A stretch of 64,000 nucleotides of DNA. It comes from Arenibacter sp. F26102. Its GTDB lineage: Bacteria; Bacteroidota; Bacteroidia; Flavobacteriales; Flavobacteriaceae. A model generated the notes under the pieces. The model saw only the letters and a program-made list of their open reading frames with translations, was not told where the DNA came from and did no database searches. Positions 4,358 through 11,700 of this stretch are shown here, one piece after another. Where the stretch lies: NCBI RefSeq assembly GCF_023015865.1, contig NZ_JALKBC010000005.1:186001-250000 (forward strand). Reading direction: 5' to 3'. Each line of letters starts with the position of its first letter. Positions within the stretch are counted from its first letter, which is position 1. The translations under genes and the position numbers were made by a program.

Positions 4358-4864
4358 ATGAAAATTATGCATTTAAAAAAGGTTATATTATTACTAGTGT
4401 TTACAGCTGGTCTTGTTACCTCCTGTTCCGTTTCCAAGGCGGCAAGACAGGATAGGAAAGTTTTAAGTGGTAATTGGATTTTAAACAATGTTTCCTATCA
4501 AGGAAGTCAGGGGAAATTTAAATCCGTACTATTTAATGACGCCGATGCCTCATGTTTTGAGGGCAGTACCTGGTTTTTTAGAAATAATAATAGTACAGGT
4601 AGCTACATGTTGGGAAACGGTAGTAATTGTGATGAAGTAGAGCGCTTTATCCGTTGGTCTGTTTTGGATAGGGAAGGAATGACCAGTCAATTGCAGTTTA
4701 AATTCATCGATGATAAATACAAGGATATATCCGGGGGGCTAGGATATAGGTTGGACATTGAACTGCTGAGCGATCAACAAATGAGGTTGACATCAAAAGT
4801 TACAGTTGAGGGACAACCGTTGACTGTGGTCTACGACTTTTCAAAAAACGACCAAACATTATAA
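4358..4864 (+). CDS. Lipocalin-like lipoprotein
   Basis: The 168-residue protein has a lipoprotein signal peptide with the lipobox LVTSC, placing the lipidated cysteine at C23. The mature part starts with a segment like the opening of lipocalin-like domains (LSGNWILNNVSYQG, about 38-51). It continues as alternating beta strands with two cysteines that could form a disulfide. Such proteins are small envelope beta barrels that may bind lipid or other hydrophobic ligands; the ligand is unknown. It precedes the OmpA-like lipoprotein gene by 120 nt in the same direction and may share a transcript with it. Confidence 0.8.
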   Translation: MKIMHLKKVILLLVFTAGLVTSCSVSKAARQDRKVLSGNWILNNVSYQGSQGKFKSVLFNDADASCFEGSTWFFRNNNSTGSYMLGNGSNCDEVERFIRWSVLDREGMTSQLQFKFIDDKYKDISGGLGYRLDIELLSDQQMRLTSKVTVEGQPLTVVYDFSKNDQTL

Positions 4865-4984: not shown

Positions 4985-5680
4985 ATGAAAAAAATAATAG
5001 TAAGTAGTTTAAGTATTTTGATGATTTTAGCTACATTCAATAGTTGTCAGGCAGTTAAGAACACCAGCCATAAGCAAAGAGGTGCAGCAACGGGTGCTGC
5101 CGGTGGTGCAGTTATTGGTGGTGTTTTAGGAAACAATGTAGGAAAGGGCGGTAATACTGCTTTGGGCGCCATAATTGGAGCTGTTGTAGGTGGTGTTGCC
5201 GGTGGTTATATAGGTGATAGAATGGACCGCCAGGCCGAACGTATTGAAGAAGAGATTCCCGGTGCAGAAGTTACTAGGGTTGGTGAAGGAATAAATGTAA
5301 CTTTTAATGAGGATGCAGGTGTGTATTTCGACACCAACAAATCTGATGTTAAAGGTACTTCCGCAACAACATTGGATCGATTGGTAGGGGTTTTAAAAGA
5401 ATATCCTGATACCAATATTTTGATAGAAGGCCATACCGATAGCGCAGGACCGGATGATTACAACTTAAACTTATCCAAGCAACGTGCACAATCTGTGACC
5501 AATTACCTTGTTAGCCATGGTATTTCAGGAGGTAGATTAACTACAGCTTGGTATGGTGAGTCCCAGCCAAAGGCAGATAATAGTACGGCTGCCGGTAAAG
5601 CCAAAAACCGTAGGGTAGAATTGGTGATCGTTGCCAATGAGGCTTTGCAACAAGAAGCGATTAGGAAAGCCAATCAATAA
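4985..5680 (+). CDS. OmpA-family lipoprotein with glycine zipper
   Basis: The 231-residue protein has a lipobox ending FNSC, with the lipidated cysteine at C21. A Gly/Ala-rich glycine-zipper segment (about 33-76, GAAGGAVIGG and related repeats) is followed by a C-terminal OmpA peptidoglycan-binding domain (about 107-222). That domain keeps the diaminopimelate-contacting pattern, with the HTDSAG motif and the NRRVEL end. The arrangement matches YiaD-like proteins that link the outer membrane to peptidoglycan. A strong terminator at 5701-5729 closes the unit. Confidence 0.93.
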   Translation: MKKIIVSSLSILMILATFNSCQAVKNTSHKQRGAATGAAGGAVIGGVLGNNVGKGGNTALGAIIGAVVGGVAGGYIGDRMDRQAERIEEEIPGAEVTRVGEGINVTFNEDAGVYFDTNKSDVKGTSATTLDRLVGVLKEYPDTNILIEGHTDSAGPDDYNLNLSKQRAQSVTNYLVSHGISGGRLTTAWYGESQPKADNSTAAGKAKNRRVELVIVANEALQQEAIRKANQ

Positions 5681-5700: not shown

Positions 5701-5729
5701 AAAACCCGACGATATTCGTCGGGTTTTTT
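5701..5729 (+). terminator. Rho-independent terminator after OmpA-like gene
   Basis: A perfect 12-bp stem (AAAACCCGACGA at 5701-5712, TCGTCGGGTTTT at 5716-5727) with a TAT loop runs into a T tract. It separates the lipoproteins from the polyketide cluster that starts 24 nt later. Confidence 0.93.
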
Positions 5730-5753: not shown

Positions 5754-6878
5754 ATGGATTCTTTTGATGTTATAATTGTTGGAGGAGGTCTGGCAGGATT
5801 AACGGCTGCCATTCATTTGAAACTAAAAAACTACGATGTGGCCGTCTTTGAAGCCAAACAATATCCCCATCATAAGGTTTGTGGGGAATATGTTTCCAAC
5901 GAAGTATTGCCATATATGGAGTTTTTAGGGGTTTCATTGCCAAAAACAGTTCAGCTCAATGAAATGTTGTTTAGTACCGTAAATGGTAAAACATTGAAGG
6001 CTCAGTTGCCATTGGGTGGTTTTGGTATGAGCAGGTTTACTTTTGATAACGCTTTATATAAAAGGGCAATTGCGTTGGGGGTGTTTGTTATTCCTGAAAA
6101 TGTAGCCTCGGTTGAATTTGAAAACGACAGCTTTGGAGTCCTCACAGAGTCAGGTAAGGAATATAAGGGCAAATTTGTAATTGGCGCTTATGGTAAAAGA
6201 GGGATGTTGGATAAAGAACTGCAGCGCGAATTTATACAGAAAAAGTCGCCCTGGTTGGGGGTAAAGGCCCATTATAAGTCGAATTCATTTCCGGATAATC
6301 TGGTGGCAATCCATAATTTCAGGGGCGGTTACGGCGGTCTGTCCAAGACAGAGAGCGATGCCGTTAATTTCTGTTATCTGGTTTCCTATGATAGCTTTAA
6401 AAAAGAGAAGGATGTTGATAGTTTTAACCAGAATGTTATAGCTAAGAACCCCTATTTGAATAAATTTCTAAATAATGCCGAGATGCTATTTGATCAACCA
6501 CTGGCTATAGGGCAGATTTCATTTCACAAAAAAAAACCTGTGGAAAAACATATCCTTATGTGTGGAGATACTGCAGGCCTAATACATCCCTTGTGCGGGA
6601 ATGGTATGGCCATGGCGATTCATAGTGCTAAAATGGCCTCGGAATCAATGGACGCTTATTTTAGTAATGGTTCTGTGGATCGGCATCAATTGGAAAGTGA
6701 CTATGAAAGACAGTGGAGGCAAATGTTTTCTAGGAGACTATGGATAGGCAGGCAGCTTCAAAGGGCTTTGCTAAACGAAAAAGTCTCAAATATGGCTATG
6801 GGCCTAATGGCAAAGTCTCCATATATGGTGAATATGCTAATTAAGAATACCCATGGACAATTAATTGAATGCGAATGA
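5754..6878 (+). CDS. FAD-dependent oxidoreductase of type III PKS cluster
   Basis: The 374-residue flavoprotein belongs to the geranylgeranyl-reductase / aromatic-hydroxylase superfamily. The Rossmann signature VIIVGGGLAGLTAA is at the N-terminus (GxGxxG at 10-15). The second FAD motif, CGDTAGLIHPLCGNG, is near 280, and the early KVCGEYVS motif is typical of the group. The start at 5754 is chosen because it puts the Rossmann motif at residue 6 and lies just past the preceding terminator; a frame reaching further upstream would overlap the OmpA gene. It is the first gene of the cluster and overlaps the methyltransferase gene by 4 nt (ATGA). By analogy with SrsC of Streptomyces griseus it could hydroxylate a type III PKS product, but a reductase role is also possible. 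Confidence 0.88.
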   Translation: MDSFDVIIVGGGLAGLTAAIHLKLKNYDVAVFEAKQYPHHKVCGEYVSNEVLPYMEFLGVSLPKTVQLNEMLFSTVNGKTLKAQLPLGGFGMSRFTFDNALYKRAIALGVFVIPENVASVEFENDSFGVLTESGKEYKGKFVIGAYGKRGMLDKELQREFIQKKSPWLGVKAHYKSNSFPDNLVAIHNFRGGYGGLSKTESDAVNFCYLVSYDSFKKEKDVDSFNQNVIAKNPYLNKFLNNAEMLFDQPLAIGQISFHKKKPVEKHILMCGDTAGLIHPLCGNGMAMAIHSAKMASESMDAYFSNGSVDRHQLESDYERQWRQMFSRRLWIGRQLQRALLNEKVSNMAMGLMAKSPYMVNMLIKNTHGQLIECE

Positions 6879-7600
6879 ATTTTTCGAGCCGTAGTTGTGA
6901 GAGGGAACTAATGGATGATCCCAATTTGGATTCCTTGCTTTTGCAGGAAGTTTATGCGGATATAAATATGGTCAATAAGGTTTTACAAGGTTTTTACCTT
7001 TCTTTAAGGGCTTTAAACAGTATCATTGAGGATAACCCTCAAAATTCCTATACAATTTTGGATATGGGTTGTGGGGATGGGGCCATGTTAAGAGAAGTTG
7101 CTTCTTATTTTAAGGACAGGTCCTTTGAATTAAATCTGATAGGAATCGATTTAAATTCAAGGTCCATTCAACTCGCTAAGGAAAATTCCAAGAAATACCC
7201 TAATATAAGATTCTTGGAACAGGATATTCTAGCGCTGGAACCCAACAAACTACAATGTGATATTCTTCTTTGCACCTTGACCATGCATCATTTTGATTCC
7301 GAGACAATACCAACTTTTCTTAATCAATTTGTGAAACTGAGCAGATTGGGAGTCGTTATAAATGATTTGCAAAGAAGTAAAGTTTCCTATTACCTTTATA
7401 AACTCTTTAGCCTTATTTTTATGAAAACAAAGATTGCTAAGCATGATGGTTTAGTTTCCATAAAAAGTGCATTTACGAAAATGGATTTAGTAGCTTTTTC
7501 CATTAATCTACCCCATTTAGAACACCATATAAGTTGGAGATGGGCGTTTCGATATTTATGGATAATACGTGTTAAGGAAAAAAATATACCATATGAGTGA
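6875..7600 (+). CDS. Class I SAM-dependent methyltransferase of type III PKS cluster
   Basis: The 241-residue protein contains the SAM-binding motif I ILDMGCGDGA at about 61-70. An acidic end of strand 2 (LIGIDLNS) and a post-I block (LLCTLTMHHFD) are both typical of class I methyltransferases. The start at 6875 gives the classic ATGA overlap with the flavoprotein stop; an ATG 6 nt upstream is possible. The C-terminal part is longer and helical, as in small-molecule O- or C-methyltransferases. Its stop overlaps the PKS start by 8 nt, so translation is coupled. The likely substrate is the polyketide product of the next gene, comparable to SrsB in the Streptomyces phenolic-lipid operon. This is inference from context. 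Confidence 0.9.
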   Translation: MNFSSRSCERELMDDPNLDSLLLQEVYADINMVNKVLQGFYLSLRALNSIIEDNPQNSYTILDMGCGDGAMLREVASYFKDRSFELNLIGIDLNSRSIQLAKENSKKYPNIRFLEQDILALEPNKLQCDILLCTLTMHHFDSETIPTFLNQFVKLSRLGVVINDLQRSKVSYYLYKLFSLIFMKTKIAKHDGLVSIKSAFTKMDLVAFSINLPHLEHHISWRWAFRYLWIIRVKEKNIPYE

Positions 7601-8648
7601 ACCCAAGATAGTTGCGGTTACCAAAGCATTACCGGCATACAGCAGAATCACCAAGGATATTTTGCCTTTTGTGGAAGAATGGATGAAGGGTCAGGATACA
7701 CGGTTTCAGCGAAAAGTACTTAAAATTTTCGAAGGGGCAGCAGTGGATAAACGTTACAGCATTATGAGTCCTGAAGAGGTTTTTGGTGTCACCTCTTTTG
7801 AAGAAAAAAATAATGTGTATATCCGTGAAGTGAAGAAACTGGGAAAGACCGTATTGGAGCAGGCCCTGGTCAAAAGCGGTTGGAGTCCGGACAGTCTGGA
7901 TTATATTATAACAGTTAGTTGTACTGGAATCATGATTCCTTCTTTGGATGCCTATCTTATAAATGATTTAGACCTTAGGCAAGATATTATCCGTTTGCCC
8001 GTTACGGAGATGGGCTGCGCTGCAGGTGTTTCAGGTCTAATTTATGCCAGTAATTTTCTAAAATCCAATCCAGGAAAAAGGGCGGCCATAGTTGCTGTTG
8101 AAAGTCCCACCGCCACATTTCAGCTTAATGATTATTCTATGGCAAATGTGGTAAGTGCCGCAATTTTTGGCGATGGAGCGGCATGTGTGTTGGTTTCCTC
8201 GGAAAAAGAGGATACCGGTCCAAGAATCGTCGGGGAAGAAATGTATCATTTTAAGGATGCTACGCAGCTGATGGGTTTTGATTTGACCAATTTGGGACTA
8301 AAAATGATTTTAGATCCCCTTGTGCCACAGGTTATATCAGAACATTTCCCCGATATTATTCATCCTTTTTTGAAGCGCTATGGTAGTTCTATTGAAAAAG
8401 TGGACCATTTAATATTTCATCCTGGGGGAAAGAAAATTGTGGAGACTGTGGAAAGCCTTTTTGGTAAGTTGGGAAAGAATTTGGACGATACCAGAGAAAC
8501 GCTCAGATTGTATGGTAATATGAGCAGCGCCACCGTGCTTTATGTTTTGGAGCGTTTTATGGATAAGGATATTCCGAAAGGGGAGCAAGGTTTGTTACTG
8601 AGTTTTGGCCCTGGATTTTCTGCCCAACGGATATTGCTGGAATGGTAA
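7593..8648 (+). CDS. Type III polyketide synthase (chalcone-synthase family)
   Basis: The 351-residue protein has the complete catalytic triad. C142 lies in VTEMGCAAG, H276 in IFHPGG and N309 in LYGNMSSA. The terminal loop SFGPGF (about 337-342) corresponds to the family GFGPG signature. Type III PKSs extend an acyl-CoA or acyl-ACP starter with malonyl units and cyclise it to resorcinols, pyrones or phloroglucinols. The start at 7593 gives MSEPKIVAV, the usual opening beta strand, and overlaps the methyltransferase stop. Neighbouring dehydratase, ketosynthase and ACP genes suggest that a dedicated fatty acyl chain is supplied as starter. Chain length and ring type cannot be read from sequence. 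Confidence 0.95.
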   Translation: MSEPKIVAVTKALPAYSRITKDILPFVEEWMKGQDTRFQRKVLKIFEGAAVDKRYSIMSPEEVFGVTSFEEKNNVYIREVKKLGKTVLEQALVKSGWSPDSLDYIITVSCTGIMIPSLDAYLINDLDLRQDIIRLPVTEMGCAAGVSGLIYASNFLKSNPGKRAAIVAVESPTATFQLNDYSMANVVSAAIFGDGAACVLVSSEKEDTGPRIVGEEMYHFKDATQLMGFDLTNLGLKMILDPLVPQVISEHFPDIIHPFLKRYGSSIEKVDHLIFHPGGKKIVETVESLFGKLGKNLDDTRETLRLYGNMSSATVLYVLERFMDKDIPKGEQGLLLSFGPGFSAQRILLEW

Positions 8649-8731
8649 TCGAGGTTTAAATTGATGGGTTGTAGATATTTATGATACTTGTCCATATAAT
8701 TAAAGTAATAGTTTATATAATTTCAATTTAA

Positions 8732-9181
8732 ATGCTTAATTTCAATAATATACTTAAAAAATTACCATACACCGAGCCTTTTTTATTTGTCGATGAACTT
8801 CAATCGGTAACGGAGAACTCAATTGAAGGTAGCTACACTTTTAAAGAGGATGAGTTTTTCTATAAGGGTCACTTTAAGGGGCATGCCGTTACTCCTGGAG
8901 TAATTCTGACCGAATGTTGTGCGCAGATCGGATTGGTATGTTTGGGGATATTCTTGTTGGATGGTCAGGAGGGAGCTACCGGGAATTATCAGGTAGCCTT
9001 AAGTAGTTCCGAGATGCAATTTTTATTACCGGTTTATCCTATGGAAACAGTAACAGTAAAATCGAGTAAGGTTTACTTTAGATTTAACAAATTGAAATGC
9101 GAGGTGAAGATTTACAATCAACAGGCTCAGTTGGTAAGTAAGGGGGTGTTGAGCGGAATGTTAAAGAATATTGATATATGA
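8732..9181 (+). CDS. FabZ-like 3-hydroxyacyl-ACP dehydratase (hot-dog fold)
   Basis: The 149-residue protein matches the FabA/FabZ hot-dog pattern. YKGHFKGHAVTPGVI (44-58) corresponds to the FabZ GHFPG...PGV segment with catalytic H47. E61 in LTECCAQ supplies the acidic residue. FabZ enzymes remove water from 3-hydroxyacyl-ACP. An 83-nt gap separates it from the PKS gene, the only sizeable gap in the cluster. Its stop overlaps the ketosynthase start by 4 nt. It is probably a pathway-specific paralogue rather than the housekeeping FabZ, because it sits with a dedicated ketosynthase and carrier protein. Confidence 0.88.
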   Translation: MLNFNNILKKLPYTEPFLFVDELQSVTENSIEGSYTFKEDEFFYKGHFKGHAVTPGVILTECCAQIGLVCLGIFLLDGQEGATGNYQVALSSSEMQFLLPVYPMETVTVKSSKVYFRFNKLKCEVKIYNQQAQLVSKGVLSGMLKNIDI

Positions 9182-10449
9182 ACACGCGCGTAGTGGTAAC
9201 AGGACTTGGTGTATGTGCGCCCAATGGGGTGGGCCTGTCCAATTTTTATGATTCACTGCGTAGCGGAGGAAGTGGAATTACATTTCATCAGGAGTTGGCG
9301 GACTTGGGCTTCGGGTGCCAAATCGCTGGAAAACCTGAAATATCGGAAAGTTTAAAAGAATCCTACTTTACCCCTTTACAACTTAAGGGCTTAAATTCAA
9401 GTGGCGTGGTTTATGGGGTAATGGCGGGAACTGATGCTTGGATGGATGCTGGTTTGGGCAAGGCCAATAAGGATAAACCCGATTGGGAAAGTGGTATTAT
9501 ATTTGGCACTGGAATTTTGGGAATAGACAAGCTCAGGGAGTCTATTTATTTGATAGATGACAATAACTCCAGACGTCTGGGCAGTAATTCTGTTATGCAG
9601 ACCATGGCCAGTGGCATAAGTGCATATCTGGGGGGGATTTTGGGATGTGGCAATCAAGTGACCACCAATTCATCGGCCTGTGCAACAGGTACAGAGGGGG
9701 TTATTATGGGATTGGAACGCATAAGGTCGGGAAAGGCCAAGAGGATGTTGGTCGGGAGTTGTAATGACAGCGGCCCCTATGTTTGGGGAGGCTTTGACGC
9801 CATGCGAATACTTCCTTCCAATTACAATGTTAATCCCGAGGATGCCAGCAGGCCAATGAGTGCCACAGCAACGGGTTTTGTCCCGGGAAGCGGTGCGGGA
9901 GCCCTGGTTTTGGAATCCTTGGGAAGTGCTTTGGACAGGGGAGCCAAGATTTACGCAGAAGTTCTGGGAGGTTCTGTAAACAGTGGTGGACAGCGCGGCG
10001 CAGGGAGTATGACGGCGCCGAATAGTGAGGCGGTCCAACGCTGTATTTTAGATGCTTTGTCCGATGCCGGAATAGAGGGGGCAGCGGTGGATGTCATTAA
10101 TGGCCATTTAACCGCGACCTCCAAGGACGCTGAAGAAATTAGAAATTGGAGTGAAGCTTTGGGGTGCTCGGGCAAGGATTTTCCCTATATAAATTCTACC
10201 AAAGGTATGGTAGGTCATTGCCTGGCTGCAGCGGGAAGCGTAGAATGCGTGGCCAGTCTATTGCAATACCGTGAGGGGGTGGTCTTTGGCAATCGAAACA
10301 GTGAAGATATACATCCCAATATCCTGGAAGTGGTGGATGCTTCCCGAATTCCACAAAAAACGATTGTTTATCGCCCAAAAATAATTGCAAAAGCAAGTTT
10401 TGGGTTTGGAGATGTAAATGCCTGTATTATCTTTAAGGAATATAAATAG
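9178..10449 (+). CDS. Beta-ketoacyl-ACP synthase (KAS II-like)
   Basis: The 423-residue thiolase-fold condensing enzyme carries the Cys-His-His set of FabF/KAS II proteins. C168 is in SSACATGT, H310 in NGHLTAT (family NAHGTxT) and H347 in TKGMVGHCLAAAG with lysine 342. The start overlaps the dehydratase stop (ATGA). The GHLT variant in place of HGT is unusual but keeps the histidine. It would elongate acyl-ACP by decarboxylative condensation. With the dehydratase and ACP it forms a partial fatty-acid module that probably builds or modifies the acyl starter for the type III PKS; the ketoreductase and enoyl reductase would have to come from general metabolism. Confidence 0.9.
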   Translation: MNTRVVVTGLGVCAPNGVGLSNFYDSLRSGGSGITFHQELADLGFGCQIAGKPEISESLKESYFTPLQLKGLNSSGVVYGVMAGTDAWMDAGLGKANKDKPDWESGIIFGTGILGIDKLRESIYLIDDNNSRRLGSNSVMQTMASGISAYLGGILGCGNQVTTNSSACATGTEGVIMGLERIRSGKAKRMLVGSCNDSGPYVWGGFDAMRILPSNYNVNPEDASRPMSATATGFVPGSGAGALVLESLGSALDRGAKIYAEVLGGSVNSGGQRGAGSMTAPNSEAVQRCILDALSDAGIEGAAVDVINGHLTATSKDAEEIRNWSEALGCSGKDFPYINSTKGMVGHCLAAAGSVECVASLLQYREGVVFGNRNSEDIHPNILEVVDASRIPQKTIVYRPKIIAKASFGFGDVNACIIFKEYK

Positions 10450-10457
10450 AGGTAATT

Positions 10458-10721
10458 ATGGTTGATAATGACGAACGTTTAGTCAGACTTAAGGAAATTG
10501 TTAAAACGTATCTTCCTGAAGATGTTTCAATAGAGGCCGTACAGGAAGAGAGTAATTTTGTAACGGAACTGAATATCAATTCAGCCCATTTGGTAGATAT
10601 TATTCTGGACCTAGAGGATACTTTTGGTATCCGATTAGAGAATGAGGACATGGATAAAATGCAAACGGTAAGGGATGCTCTTAATATTATAGACCTAAAA
10701 TTATTGGATAAAAATAATTAG
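10458..10721 (+). CDS. Acyl carrier protein of type III PKS cluster
   Basis: The 87-residue acidic helical protein fits the ACP/PP-binding fold. The modification site reads LNINSAHLVDII, with the phosphopantetheine serine at S42. The usual DSL motif is replaced by N-S-A, a divergence also met in other specialised carrier proteins. Helix II (LVDIILDLEDTFGI) is typical. It starts 8 nt after the ketosynthase stop and closes the cluster. Its stop overlaps the stop of the convergent TerC gene by 4 nt, and no terminator is visible between them. It probably carries the growing acyl chain handed to the PKS. Confidence 0.88.
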   Translation: MVDNDERLVRLKEIVKTYLPEDVSIEAVQEESNFVTELNINSAHLVDIILDLEDTFGIRLENEDMDKMQTVRDALNIIDLKLLDKNN

Positions 10722-11671
10722 GCTTCCTTTATAGCCTTGTTTTCCGGAATAAGCAAAGAGGTAATTATGCCAGCTATCAAGGATACCGATATTACCGTTA
10801 GGGAAACCCACTCAGGGATTTCGATATGATGGGAGAATAACATTTTTAAACCAACAAAGGCTAGTATAACCACTAGGCTATAATTTATATACCTGAACTT
10901 TTCCAGCATTCTGGAAATTAAGAAATACATAGATCTTAAACCTAATATTGCTAAAATATTGGAGCTAAAAACAATAAAGGGATCTGCCGTAATAGCTAAA
11001 ATTGCTGGAATGCTATCCAAAGCAAACAGTATGTCCGTTAATTCTATGATTACAAGGGCTACAAAAAGTGGCGTGGCGGCAGTGACCCCCATACGCTTCA
11101 CAAAGAAATCATGGCCATTTAAGGTTGCTGTAATGGGGTATATCTTTTTCAATCTTTTGAAAACGAAAGAGTTTTTTGGGTCAAATTTACTTTCGTCCGA
11201 CCTTAACATTTTAAAGGCGGTATACAACAGGAAGACTCCAAAAACATAAATTACCCATTCAAATTTCGTAATAAGGGCAACGCCGAATACTATCATTAGG
11301 GCCCTAAATACAATGGCGCCCAAAATACCCCAGAACAATACCCTATGTTGGTAAATGGGCGGAATCTTAAAGGCACCGAAAATTACTGCAATTACGAAGA
11401 CATTGTCTATACTCAGTGACAATTCTATGAGATACCCGGTTATGTATTTTAAGACTGCATTATTGGGTGTTAATCCAGTGGGGTTATCTATAAGGCCGCT
11501 GGAGAATAACCAATATATTACGCCACTAAAACTGAAGGCAACAGTGACCCAAATAGCGGTCCATATGCTTGCTTCCTTGGTTTTAATAACATGTTCATGT
11601 TTGTGGAAAACGCCTAAATCAAGTGCTAGAAATATAATAATCAGAAAAATAAAGGATCCCCAAATTAACAT
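10718..11671 (-). CDS. TerC/Alx-family integral membrane protein
   Basis: The 317-residue protein (start at 11671) has about eight hydrophobic segments. It keeps the family's buried acidic motifs: LDLGVFH near the N-terminus, SLSIDNVFVI in the middle and LTDILFALDSIPA further on. TerC/Alx proteins are linked to tellurite resistance and to manganese or other metal export. The start at MLIWGSF is chosen over an upstream one because a -7 element (11693-11700, minus strand) would otherwise fall inside the gene. It converges on the ACP gene with a 4-nt overlap of stop codons. Confidence 0.9.
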   Translation of the reverse strand: MLIWGSFIFLIIIFLALDLGVFHKHEHVIKTKEASIWTAIWVTVAFSFSGVIYWLFSSGLIDNPTGLTPNNAVLKYITGYLIELSLSIDNVFVIAVIFGAFKIPPIYQHRVLFWGILGAIVFRALMIVFGVALITKFEWVIYVFGVFLLYTAFKMLRSDESKFDPKNSFVFKRLKKIYPITATLNGHDFFVKRMGVTAATPLFVALVIIELTDILFALDSIPAILAITADPFIVFSSNILAILGLRSMYFLISRMLEKFRYINYSLVVILAFVGLKMLFSHHIEIPEWVSLTVISVSLIAGIITSLLIPENKAIKEA

Positions 11672-11692
11672 AGTCAGAATGATTTTAAGGCA

Positions 11693-11700
11693 CAAATGTA
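11693..11700 (-). promoter_or_regulatory. -7 element of TerC gene
   Basis: TACATTTG on the minus strand matches the Bacteroidota TAnnTTTG element, 21 nt before the ATG at 11671. No clear -33 TTTG is seen. Confidence 0.55.

Follow-up and report, generated by a model that had tools for sequence, protein, structure and literature searches.

Two described systems stand close to the type III polyketide synthase (PKS) operon that we analyzed in Arenibacter sp. F26102, where it occupies positions 5754 to 10721 of a 64,000-nucleotide stretch (positions 186,001 to 250,000 of contig NZ_JALKBC010000005.1; hereafter, the window). In Azotobacter vinelandii, the phenolic-lipid system ArsABCD brings dedicated fatty-acid synthase genes into the same operon as a type III PKS, as is the case here, and to our knowledge ars is the only known operon that combines fatty-acid synthase genes with a type III PKS. 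The Azotobacter synthase is of the type I multidomain kind (ArsA and ArsD), whereas the window operon encodes a single-domain ketosynthase (KS), dehydratase (DH), and acyl carrier protein (ACP), to which most relatives add an enoyl reductase (ER); beyond the ars set, it also has genes for a flavoprotein and for a methyltransferase of class I. The Streptomyces srsABC genes combine a type III PKS, a methyltransferase, and a flavoprotein, as the window does, and as far as we know this trio comes without fatty-acid genes. The handing over of a chain by a dedicated synthase has its precedent in Azotobacter, with its type I synthase (PMC8086630, PMC6274091, and PMC5916927; these and the surveys cited below are represented here by excerpts of their text). 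ArsB and ArsC were speculated to use ACP-bound chains, and CylI takes its chains from type I PKSs (PMC8086630). Germicidin synthase and SCO7671 condense hexanoyl-ACP, and the reference list of the same paper contains a title on direct transfer from a type I fatty-acid synthase to a type III PKS (PMC6274091).

In the window operon, it is probable, at roughly 0.7 in our estimate from the sequence comparisons given below, that a dissociated fatty-acid synthase loads an acyl-ACP onto the PKS and that the resulting product is a decorated alkyl-ring lipid. The class of the cluster is already known to genome miners as T3PKS; what is new is that the operon of this type III PKS brings along a fatty-acid set of its own in dissociated form. 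If the proposed pathway holds, Azotobacter ars would gain a counterpart of type II.

The six genes of the operon (Table 1) belong to the protein families to which an original prediction, made from the letters of the window, had assigned them, as confirmed by Pfam and by intact catalytic motifs. The same prediction had tied a dedicated acyl-ACP supply to the PKS, and the distribution of the genes among relatives bears this out. In a family sample of 149 genomes, one per genus, a PKS ortholog is present in 48 (at least 63% identical; the next best match is 32% identical), and orthologs of the KS (E up to 1e-60, at least 56% identical) occur in 47 genomes, all of which are among these 48; i.e., the KS is found in 47/48 genomes with the PKS versus 0/101 without it. 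Across 395 genomes of the phylum, the same 33 hold the close PKS (at least 67% identical), the close KS (at least 62%), and the 33 best flavoprotein matches. The PKS is present in all 18 Arenibacter genomes searched, including that of the window, and the closest named PKS among the matches listed is that of Arenibacter arenosicollis (95% identical).

The order of the genes is conserved as well. All seven genes, i.e., the six of the window and the ER gene, are found in the order flavoprotein, methyltransferase, PKS, ER, DH, KS, and ACP in 38 of the 47 fetched family loci of other genera (33 of the 38 without a gap of more than 400 bp), and because this order is kept, the arrangement is not due to chance. 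The flavoprotein ortholog adjoins the PKS in 47/47 of these loci. Of the remaining nine, four are without the ER, one (L076) has an ER remnant, L047 is without the DH, L043 and L044 stop after the ER, and L045 is cut; a contig end cuts the cluster of genome G066. Intergenic gaps are mostly short, with medians of -8 to 15 bp. Among the 80 best-matching named loci out of at least 583 PKS loci found, which are a nonrandom set overlapping the family sample, 61 hold exactly the seven genes in this order and 12 are without the ER (9 of these are Arenibacter); the others are L130, which has a motif-less short-chain dehydrogenase/reductase (SDR) gene after the ACP gene, one locus with an extra ACP match, one with two ER matches, and four that are cut.

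Among the 33 phylum genomes mentioned above, G243, G298, and G408 (loci L190, L188, and L189, respectively) are the three that come from other families of the class. The copy in L189 is complete, and those in L188 and L190 are without the ER; in the PKS tree, the latter two fall next to L053, a row from the family (Shimodaira-Hasegawa-like approximate likelihood ratio test [SH-aLRT] = 84), which may point to horizontal transfer of the whole unit.

The PKS scores far above the cut-off of 27 bits for each of its two Pfam domains (79.5 bits for PF00195 and 70.8 bits for PF02797), and its catalytic triad of C142, H276, and N309 is invariant across 28 aligned sequences. In the rows in which the PKS is coupled to fatty-acid genes, which are counted as rows and not as distinct genomes (145 PKS rows, of which 131 are distinct), the cysteine and histidine motifs are present in 145/145 and the asparagine motif in 142/145. 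The predicted structure takes a thiolase fold, for which the closest matches are the mycobacterial PKS11, an enzyme fed by acyl-CoA, and CylI of the cylindrocyclophane pathway, both only 26 to 29% identical to the window PKS. The best match is PKS11 (PDB accession number 4jap; Z-score = 42.4, root mean square deviation [RMSD] = 2.5, number of aligned residues = 343), the structure title of which names a maker of methyl-branched alkylpyrones, followed closely by CylI (Z-score = 41.6, RMSD = 2.5, number of aligned residues = 346), which was crystallized with acyl and beta-ketoacyl thioesters.

A tryptophan at one site is reported to mark the alkylresorcinol formers ArsB, FtpA, SrsA, PKS10, PKS11, and MMAR_2474 (PMC5916927); by alignment, this site is W230 of PKS11 and F229 of the window PKS. 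Position 229 is phenylalanine in all 145 coupled PKS rows, in 3 PKSs from other families of the class, and in 11 clusters from other families of the order, while the marker site is tryptophan in 30/30 other aligned PKSs of Bacteroidota. As judged from these alignments, the change to Phe229 goes together with coupling of the PKS to fatty-acid genes. In a quick PKS tree with long branches, which does not include clusters from the order's other families, the 55 coupled rows group apart from the rows that have the trio of flavoprotein, methyltransferase, and PKS only (SH-aLRT = 99.5), and the PKSs of the unit form one clade. The unit in this clade is defined by seven genes and is set apart by its dissociated fatty-acid supply and by Phe229, which gives a specific pathway in place of a generic antiSMASH label.

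The fatty-acid proteins of the cluster retain their catalytic residues and are distinct from those of general metabolism. Over the coupled rows, the KS cysteine and first histidine are present in 138/138, the second histidine in 131/138, and the ACP serine in 136/138. The cluster KS reaches a score of 249 on the FabF model, for which the cut-off is 494, and is 38% identical to the housekeeping FabF of the same genome, which is encoded elsewhere and scores 597. The main FabZ-type dehydratase and the flexirubin ketosynthases of the genome are likewise encoded elsewhere and differ from the cluster proteins.

The original prediction missed both the ER of the relatives and its absence from Arenibacter. 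In most relatives, approximately 800 bp separate the PKS and DH genes and are occupied by an SDR gene. The best NCBIfam model for its product is FabL (NF005975) with 156.5 bits, under the equivalog cut-off of 328, and the best PDB match is the solved FabL structure (accession number 3oic). A Y-x6-K motif, which we take to mark enoyl reductases, is present in 109/110 rows of at least 200 amino acids; the one miss is the SDR encoded downstream of the ACP in L130, which may be unrelated. With the ER, the chain-elongation set of the full operon is complete except for a ketoreductase. When the ER was used as the sole query over 336 genomes of the order, 29 genomes matched, 17 within the family and 12 in other families; the PKS is present in 16 of the 17, and all 11 of the other-family loci that were fetched (that of G625 was not) hold the seven genes in the same order, with internal extra genes or gaps in L249 and L250. 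This search ruled out the ER as an unrelated neighbor. The exception within the family is G031, a genome in which neither the PKS nor the KS is present: a lone cluster-type ER (L243, positions 9657 to 10451) directly follows an OmpA-like gene, the place that the cluster takes in relatives, and HPF is encoded beyond it. This ER is probably a remnant that was left after loss of the cluster.

The ER is missing from the cluster in all 18 Arenibacter genomes (the window and 17 fetched congeners). No match was obtained when the genome of the window (a 5.4-Mb draft in 84 contigs with a completeness rating of 100%) was searched with the ER at E up to 1e-45, and its best SDRs are only 27 to 30% identical (best E = 5.6e-18), which amounts to no ortholog in this draft and speaks against relocation of the ER within the genome. 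L076 presents an ER caught during loss: at positions 10647 to 10829, a 59-residue remnant keeps both ends of the protein, and the middle is gone. On the PKS tree, presence and absence of the ER require at least six changes, with 42 of the 53 scored rows counted as present (L076, with its remnant only, is scored as present). Because of these changes and the consistent absence from Arenibacter, repeated loss of the ER is probable, and the window represents a lost state.

In the mechanism that we propose, the KS, the FabZ-like DH, and the dedicated ACP, together with the ER in most relatives, would build or lengthen an acyl chain, and since the operon has no ketoreductase, this activity would be borrowed from the FabG of the cell. 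The resulting acyl-ACP, or its beta-ketoacyl or enoyl form, would be loaded onto C142 of the PKS, which would add malonyl units and then cyclize the chain, after which the methyltransferase and the flavoprotein would methylate and hydroxylate the ring. In Arenibacter, which is without the ER, the chain either would be saturated by a housekeeping reductase or would stay unsaturated. Because a methyltransferase and a flavoprotein accompany the PKS, the product is less likely to be a plain pyrone than an alkyl phenol, hydroquinone, or quinone that has been oxygenated and methylated; its destination may be the envelope. The original prediction had listed an alkylresorcinol, a pyrone, or a quinone lipid, and of these the alkylresorcinol is weakened by the phenylalanine at the tryptophan site. 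A more speculative extension, which we regard as doubtful, is that ER, DH, KS, and ACP constitute a portable cassette, joined by Bacteroidota to various kinds of ring-forming machinery, in which the ER acts as a chemotype switch: where it is kept, saturated rings would be made, and where it is lost, as in Arenibacter and several others, a conjugated enoyl or polyenoyl starter would lead to an unsaturated and possibly colored or redox-active ring lipid, with a cyclization set by Phe229 that is unlike that of known alkylresorcinol synthases.

The two decorating enzymes are only broadly classified by their matches. The best folds for the flavoprotein are flavin halogenases, squalene epoxidase, and p-hydroxybenzoate hydroxylase (Z-scores of 31 to 36, approximately 340 to 364 residues, RMSD of 2.8 to 3.7), and its best NCBIfam match is the geranylgeranyl reductase superfamily, under the cut-off; it is presumably a ring hydroxylase, although a halogenase or a reductase is also possible. 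The methyltransferase matches only class I models in Pfam, without any match to an ICMT model, and its best NCBIfam model is PRK06202 (139 bits, under the cut-off of 243). It presumably methylates the ring or a hydroxyl group on it.

It is on the methyltransferase that the likeness to srs breaks down. The original prediction equated the window genes with the srsC-srsB-srsA trio, which the comparison does not support. In Streptomyces sp. NBC_01237, the PKS is followed by an ICMT and then by the flavoprotein, an order that we take to be the srs layout, with SrsB presumably belonging to the ICMT-type family. PKS-ICMT pairs also lie on plasmids of Stenotrophomonas, Lysinibacillus, and Phyllobacterium (4 of the 223 plasmid records examined, including that of Streptomyces) and in the Bacteroidota loci L195 and L196, with ICMT assigned by annotation or by Pfam, whereas the methyltransferase of the window is of class I. 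Two of the three srs-type proteins are shared, and a methyltransferase of another family perhaps does a like job. A phenolic-lipid cluster of the ordinary srs type, in which acyl-CoA or acyl-ACP from general metabolism primes the PKS and the fatty-acid genes only increase the supply, would be in keeping with the homology of the PKS and flavoprotein to the Streptomyces PKS-ICMT-flavoprotein set (the flavoprotein is 27% identical over 339 aligned columns to that of L237, a Streptomyces plasmid locus of this layout that served as the reference in place of S. griseus SrsC) and with the sets of flavoprotein, methyltransferase, and PKS genes without fatty-acid genes in other Bacteroidota. We nevertheless consider it unlikely, given the different methyltransferase family, the phenylalanine in place of the tryptophan found in SrsA (PMC5916927), and the restriction of the KS to genomes with the PKS in the family sample.

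Several observations weigh against acyl-ACP loading by a dedicated synthase. The operon encodes no ketoreductase. The Fisher value for the co-occurrence of PKS and KS (3e-38) overstates independence, as the genomes are related. The dehydratase is missing from L047, and G138 holds only the flavoprotein, methyltransferase, PKS, and ER, with no KS ortholog and no DH, KS, or ACP in approximately 8.6 kb downstream. In G144, the PKS and the KS, DH, and ACP genes are on separate contigs, and neither set is near a contig end. The dehydratase patterns missed 5 (His) and 24 (Glu) of 141 rows; because both residues are found at 98% or more in a separate alignment, we put these misses down to overly strict patterns. 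As to the ring, Phe229 would also be compatible with a pyrone or another cyclization, and the tryptophan marker is not clean, as PKS11 carries it and the PDB titles speak of alkylpyrones.

Both parts of the cluster also occur apart, which belongs to the same side of the balance. Any type III PKS is present in 143/395 phylum genomes, in 110 of them as a more distant one, and 16 of the 17 loci of more distant PKSs that were inspected have no homolog of the other cluster genes nearby. More distant flavoprotein matches occur in 47 phylum genomes; among 15 such loci fetched (L208 to L222), 12 hold the flavoprotein, methyltransferase, and PKS together without fatty-acid genes, which with L207 makes 13. 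The exceptions are L215 and L218, with the flavoprotein alone, and L217, in which the flavoprotein and PKS are approximately 3 kb apart and no methyltransferase is present. Conversely, a KS that is 48 to 50% identical lies with DH and ACP away from any PKS in 5/5 loci (L223 to L227), three of which include the ER. Independence of the KS, DH, and ACP genes from the PKS in relatives, which the original prediction had named as contrary evidence, is seen once in the family, in G144, and in these five more distant Bacteroidota loci. All five of their genomes have a type III PKS somewhere, versus 143/395 overall, and three belong to the same family. In L223 and L224, a divergently oriented ER-DH-KS-ACP set lies beside DarB and DarH, which are dialkylresorcinol genes; in L223, a phosphopantetheinyl-transferase-like gene comes after the ACP gene, and ABC-transporter genes follow. 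The fatty-acid module may feed dialkylresorcinol synthesis too. In L225 to L227, DH, KS, and ACP genes (with the ER in L227) lie beside glycosyltransferase family 2 genes and genes for GNAT-domain or Pfam-less proteins, and they presumably serve some lipid pathway.

These loci bear on another explanation, in which the fatty-acid genes would provide not the PKS starter but another part of the molecule, e.g., a fatty acid esterified to the ring, much as the dialkylresorcinol of flexirubin carries an aryl polyene. Since all five sets stand apart from a PKS, two beside DarB and DarH and three beside glycosyltransferase genes, the module can serve several lipids. No ligase or acyltransferase able to join two moieties was found in the operon, however, when its six proteins were searched with Pfam and NCBIfam models, and a separate moiety is in our view quite unlikely. 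Type III PKSs normally release free cyclized products and not ACP-bound chains, which counts against a role of the KS, DH, and ACP downstream of the PKS. Extension of the PKS product by these proteins is accordingly very improbable, for although the gene order, with the PKS before the KS, would fit, the hybrids described in PMC8086630 run the opposite way.

Because the trio and the fatty-acid module each occur apart, the window cluster looks as if a ring-forming set had been combined with a fatty-acid module that is portable. When coupled sets are compared with trio-only sets, the identities are 41% for the flavoprotein, 33% for the methyltransferase, and 28% for the PKS, while within the coupled sets they are 49%, 42%, and 71%, respectively. 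The PKS values, 28% across the groups versus 71% within, together with the split in the tree, disfavor the descent of the flavoprotein, methyltransferase, and PKS as one set. From these identities, a different PKS may have been taken up at the time the module was added, or the PKS may have changed fast once.

Type III PKS clusters account for 9% of the biosynthetic clusters of Flavobacteriaceae in one survey (PMC7440613) and for 10.7% in another of 2,680 genomes (PMC10734526). In a study of Reichenbachiella, five of the six strains are reported to have type III PKS clusters; four of these clusters have no similar known cluster, and one is at 4% similarity to a polysaccharide cluster. In agreement with the original prediction, no characterized product of a flavobacterial type III PKS was found in the parts of the openly licensed literature that were searched; PMC9248904 has no mention of type III PKS, T3PKS, resorcinol, or pyrone.

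The features of the operon and its surroundings are collected in Table 1. Start/stop overlaps are present at three of the five junctions, those of the flavoprotein and methyltransferase (10 bp), methyltransferase and PKS (8 bp), and DH and KS (4 bp) genes; the KS and ACP genes are separated by 8 bp and the PKS and DH genes by the gap listed in the table, so that the PKS gene lacks the start/stop coupling to the DH gene that the original prediction suggests. A terminator-like hairpin is the probable upstream boundary of the operon, which is suggestive only, as six such sites are found in the region versus a mean of 4.4 in shuffled sequence. At the other end, the last 4 bp of the ACP gene are shared with a TerC-family gene that is encoded on the opposite strand.

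Table 1. Coordinates of the operon and adjacent features in the window
Feature	Position	Strand	Length	Basis and remarks
Lipocalin-like lipoprotein gene	4358-4864			Upstream neighbor of the operon in many genera
Glycine-zipper OmpA-like lipoprotein gene	4985-5680			Upstream neighbor of the operon in many genera
Terminator-like hairpin	5701-5727	+	12 pairs	Separates the operon from the OmpA-like lipoprotein gene; consensus match
Flavin adenine dinucleotide (FAD)-dependent oxidoreductase	5754-6878	+	374 aa	Pfam; flavin monooxygenase/halogenase/geranylgeranyl-reductase superfamily
Class I S-adenosylmethionine (SAM) methyltransferase (P0002)	6869-7600	+	243 aa	Pfam; best NCBIfam model PRK06202
Type III PKS	7593-8648	+	351 aa	Pfam chalcone/stilbene synthase N and C domains
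Gap at the site of the FabL-like ER gene of most relatives	8649-8731		83 bp	
FabZ-like 3-hydroxyacyl-ACP dehydratase	8732-9181	+	149 aa	Pfam FabA-like domain; His and Glu motifs present
FabF-like ketosynthase (P0005)	9178-10449	+	423 aa	Pfam ketoacyl synthase; Cys-His-His motifs present
Acyl carrier protein	10458-10721	+	87 aa	Pfam phosphopantetheine attachment site; Ser in INSA motif
TerC-family gene	10718-11695	-		

The two lipoprotein genes upstream were considered as members of the cluster and rejected. An ortholog of the OmpA-like gene is present in 93/149 family genomes, in 41/48 with the PKS and in 52/101 without it, and because of the latter these genes are taken as background. In L250, a locus from another family of the order, a gene for a PAS histidine kinase and a DUF7793 gene are inserted in the cluster between the PKS and ER genes (positions 6471 to 9137), hinting at local regulation.

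In dialkylresorcinol and flexirubin clusters, DarB is a ketosynthase-III-like enzyme and not a type III PKS, and the DarB models of NCBIfam gave no match among the six operon proteins. A flexirubin/dialkylresorcinol cluster is present outside the window in the same genome (contig C33, positions 262000 to 301800; L241 and L242), with FlxA, FlxB, DarB, and DarH all over their cut-offs, so that the Arenibacter genome would have two separate ring-lipid pathways.

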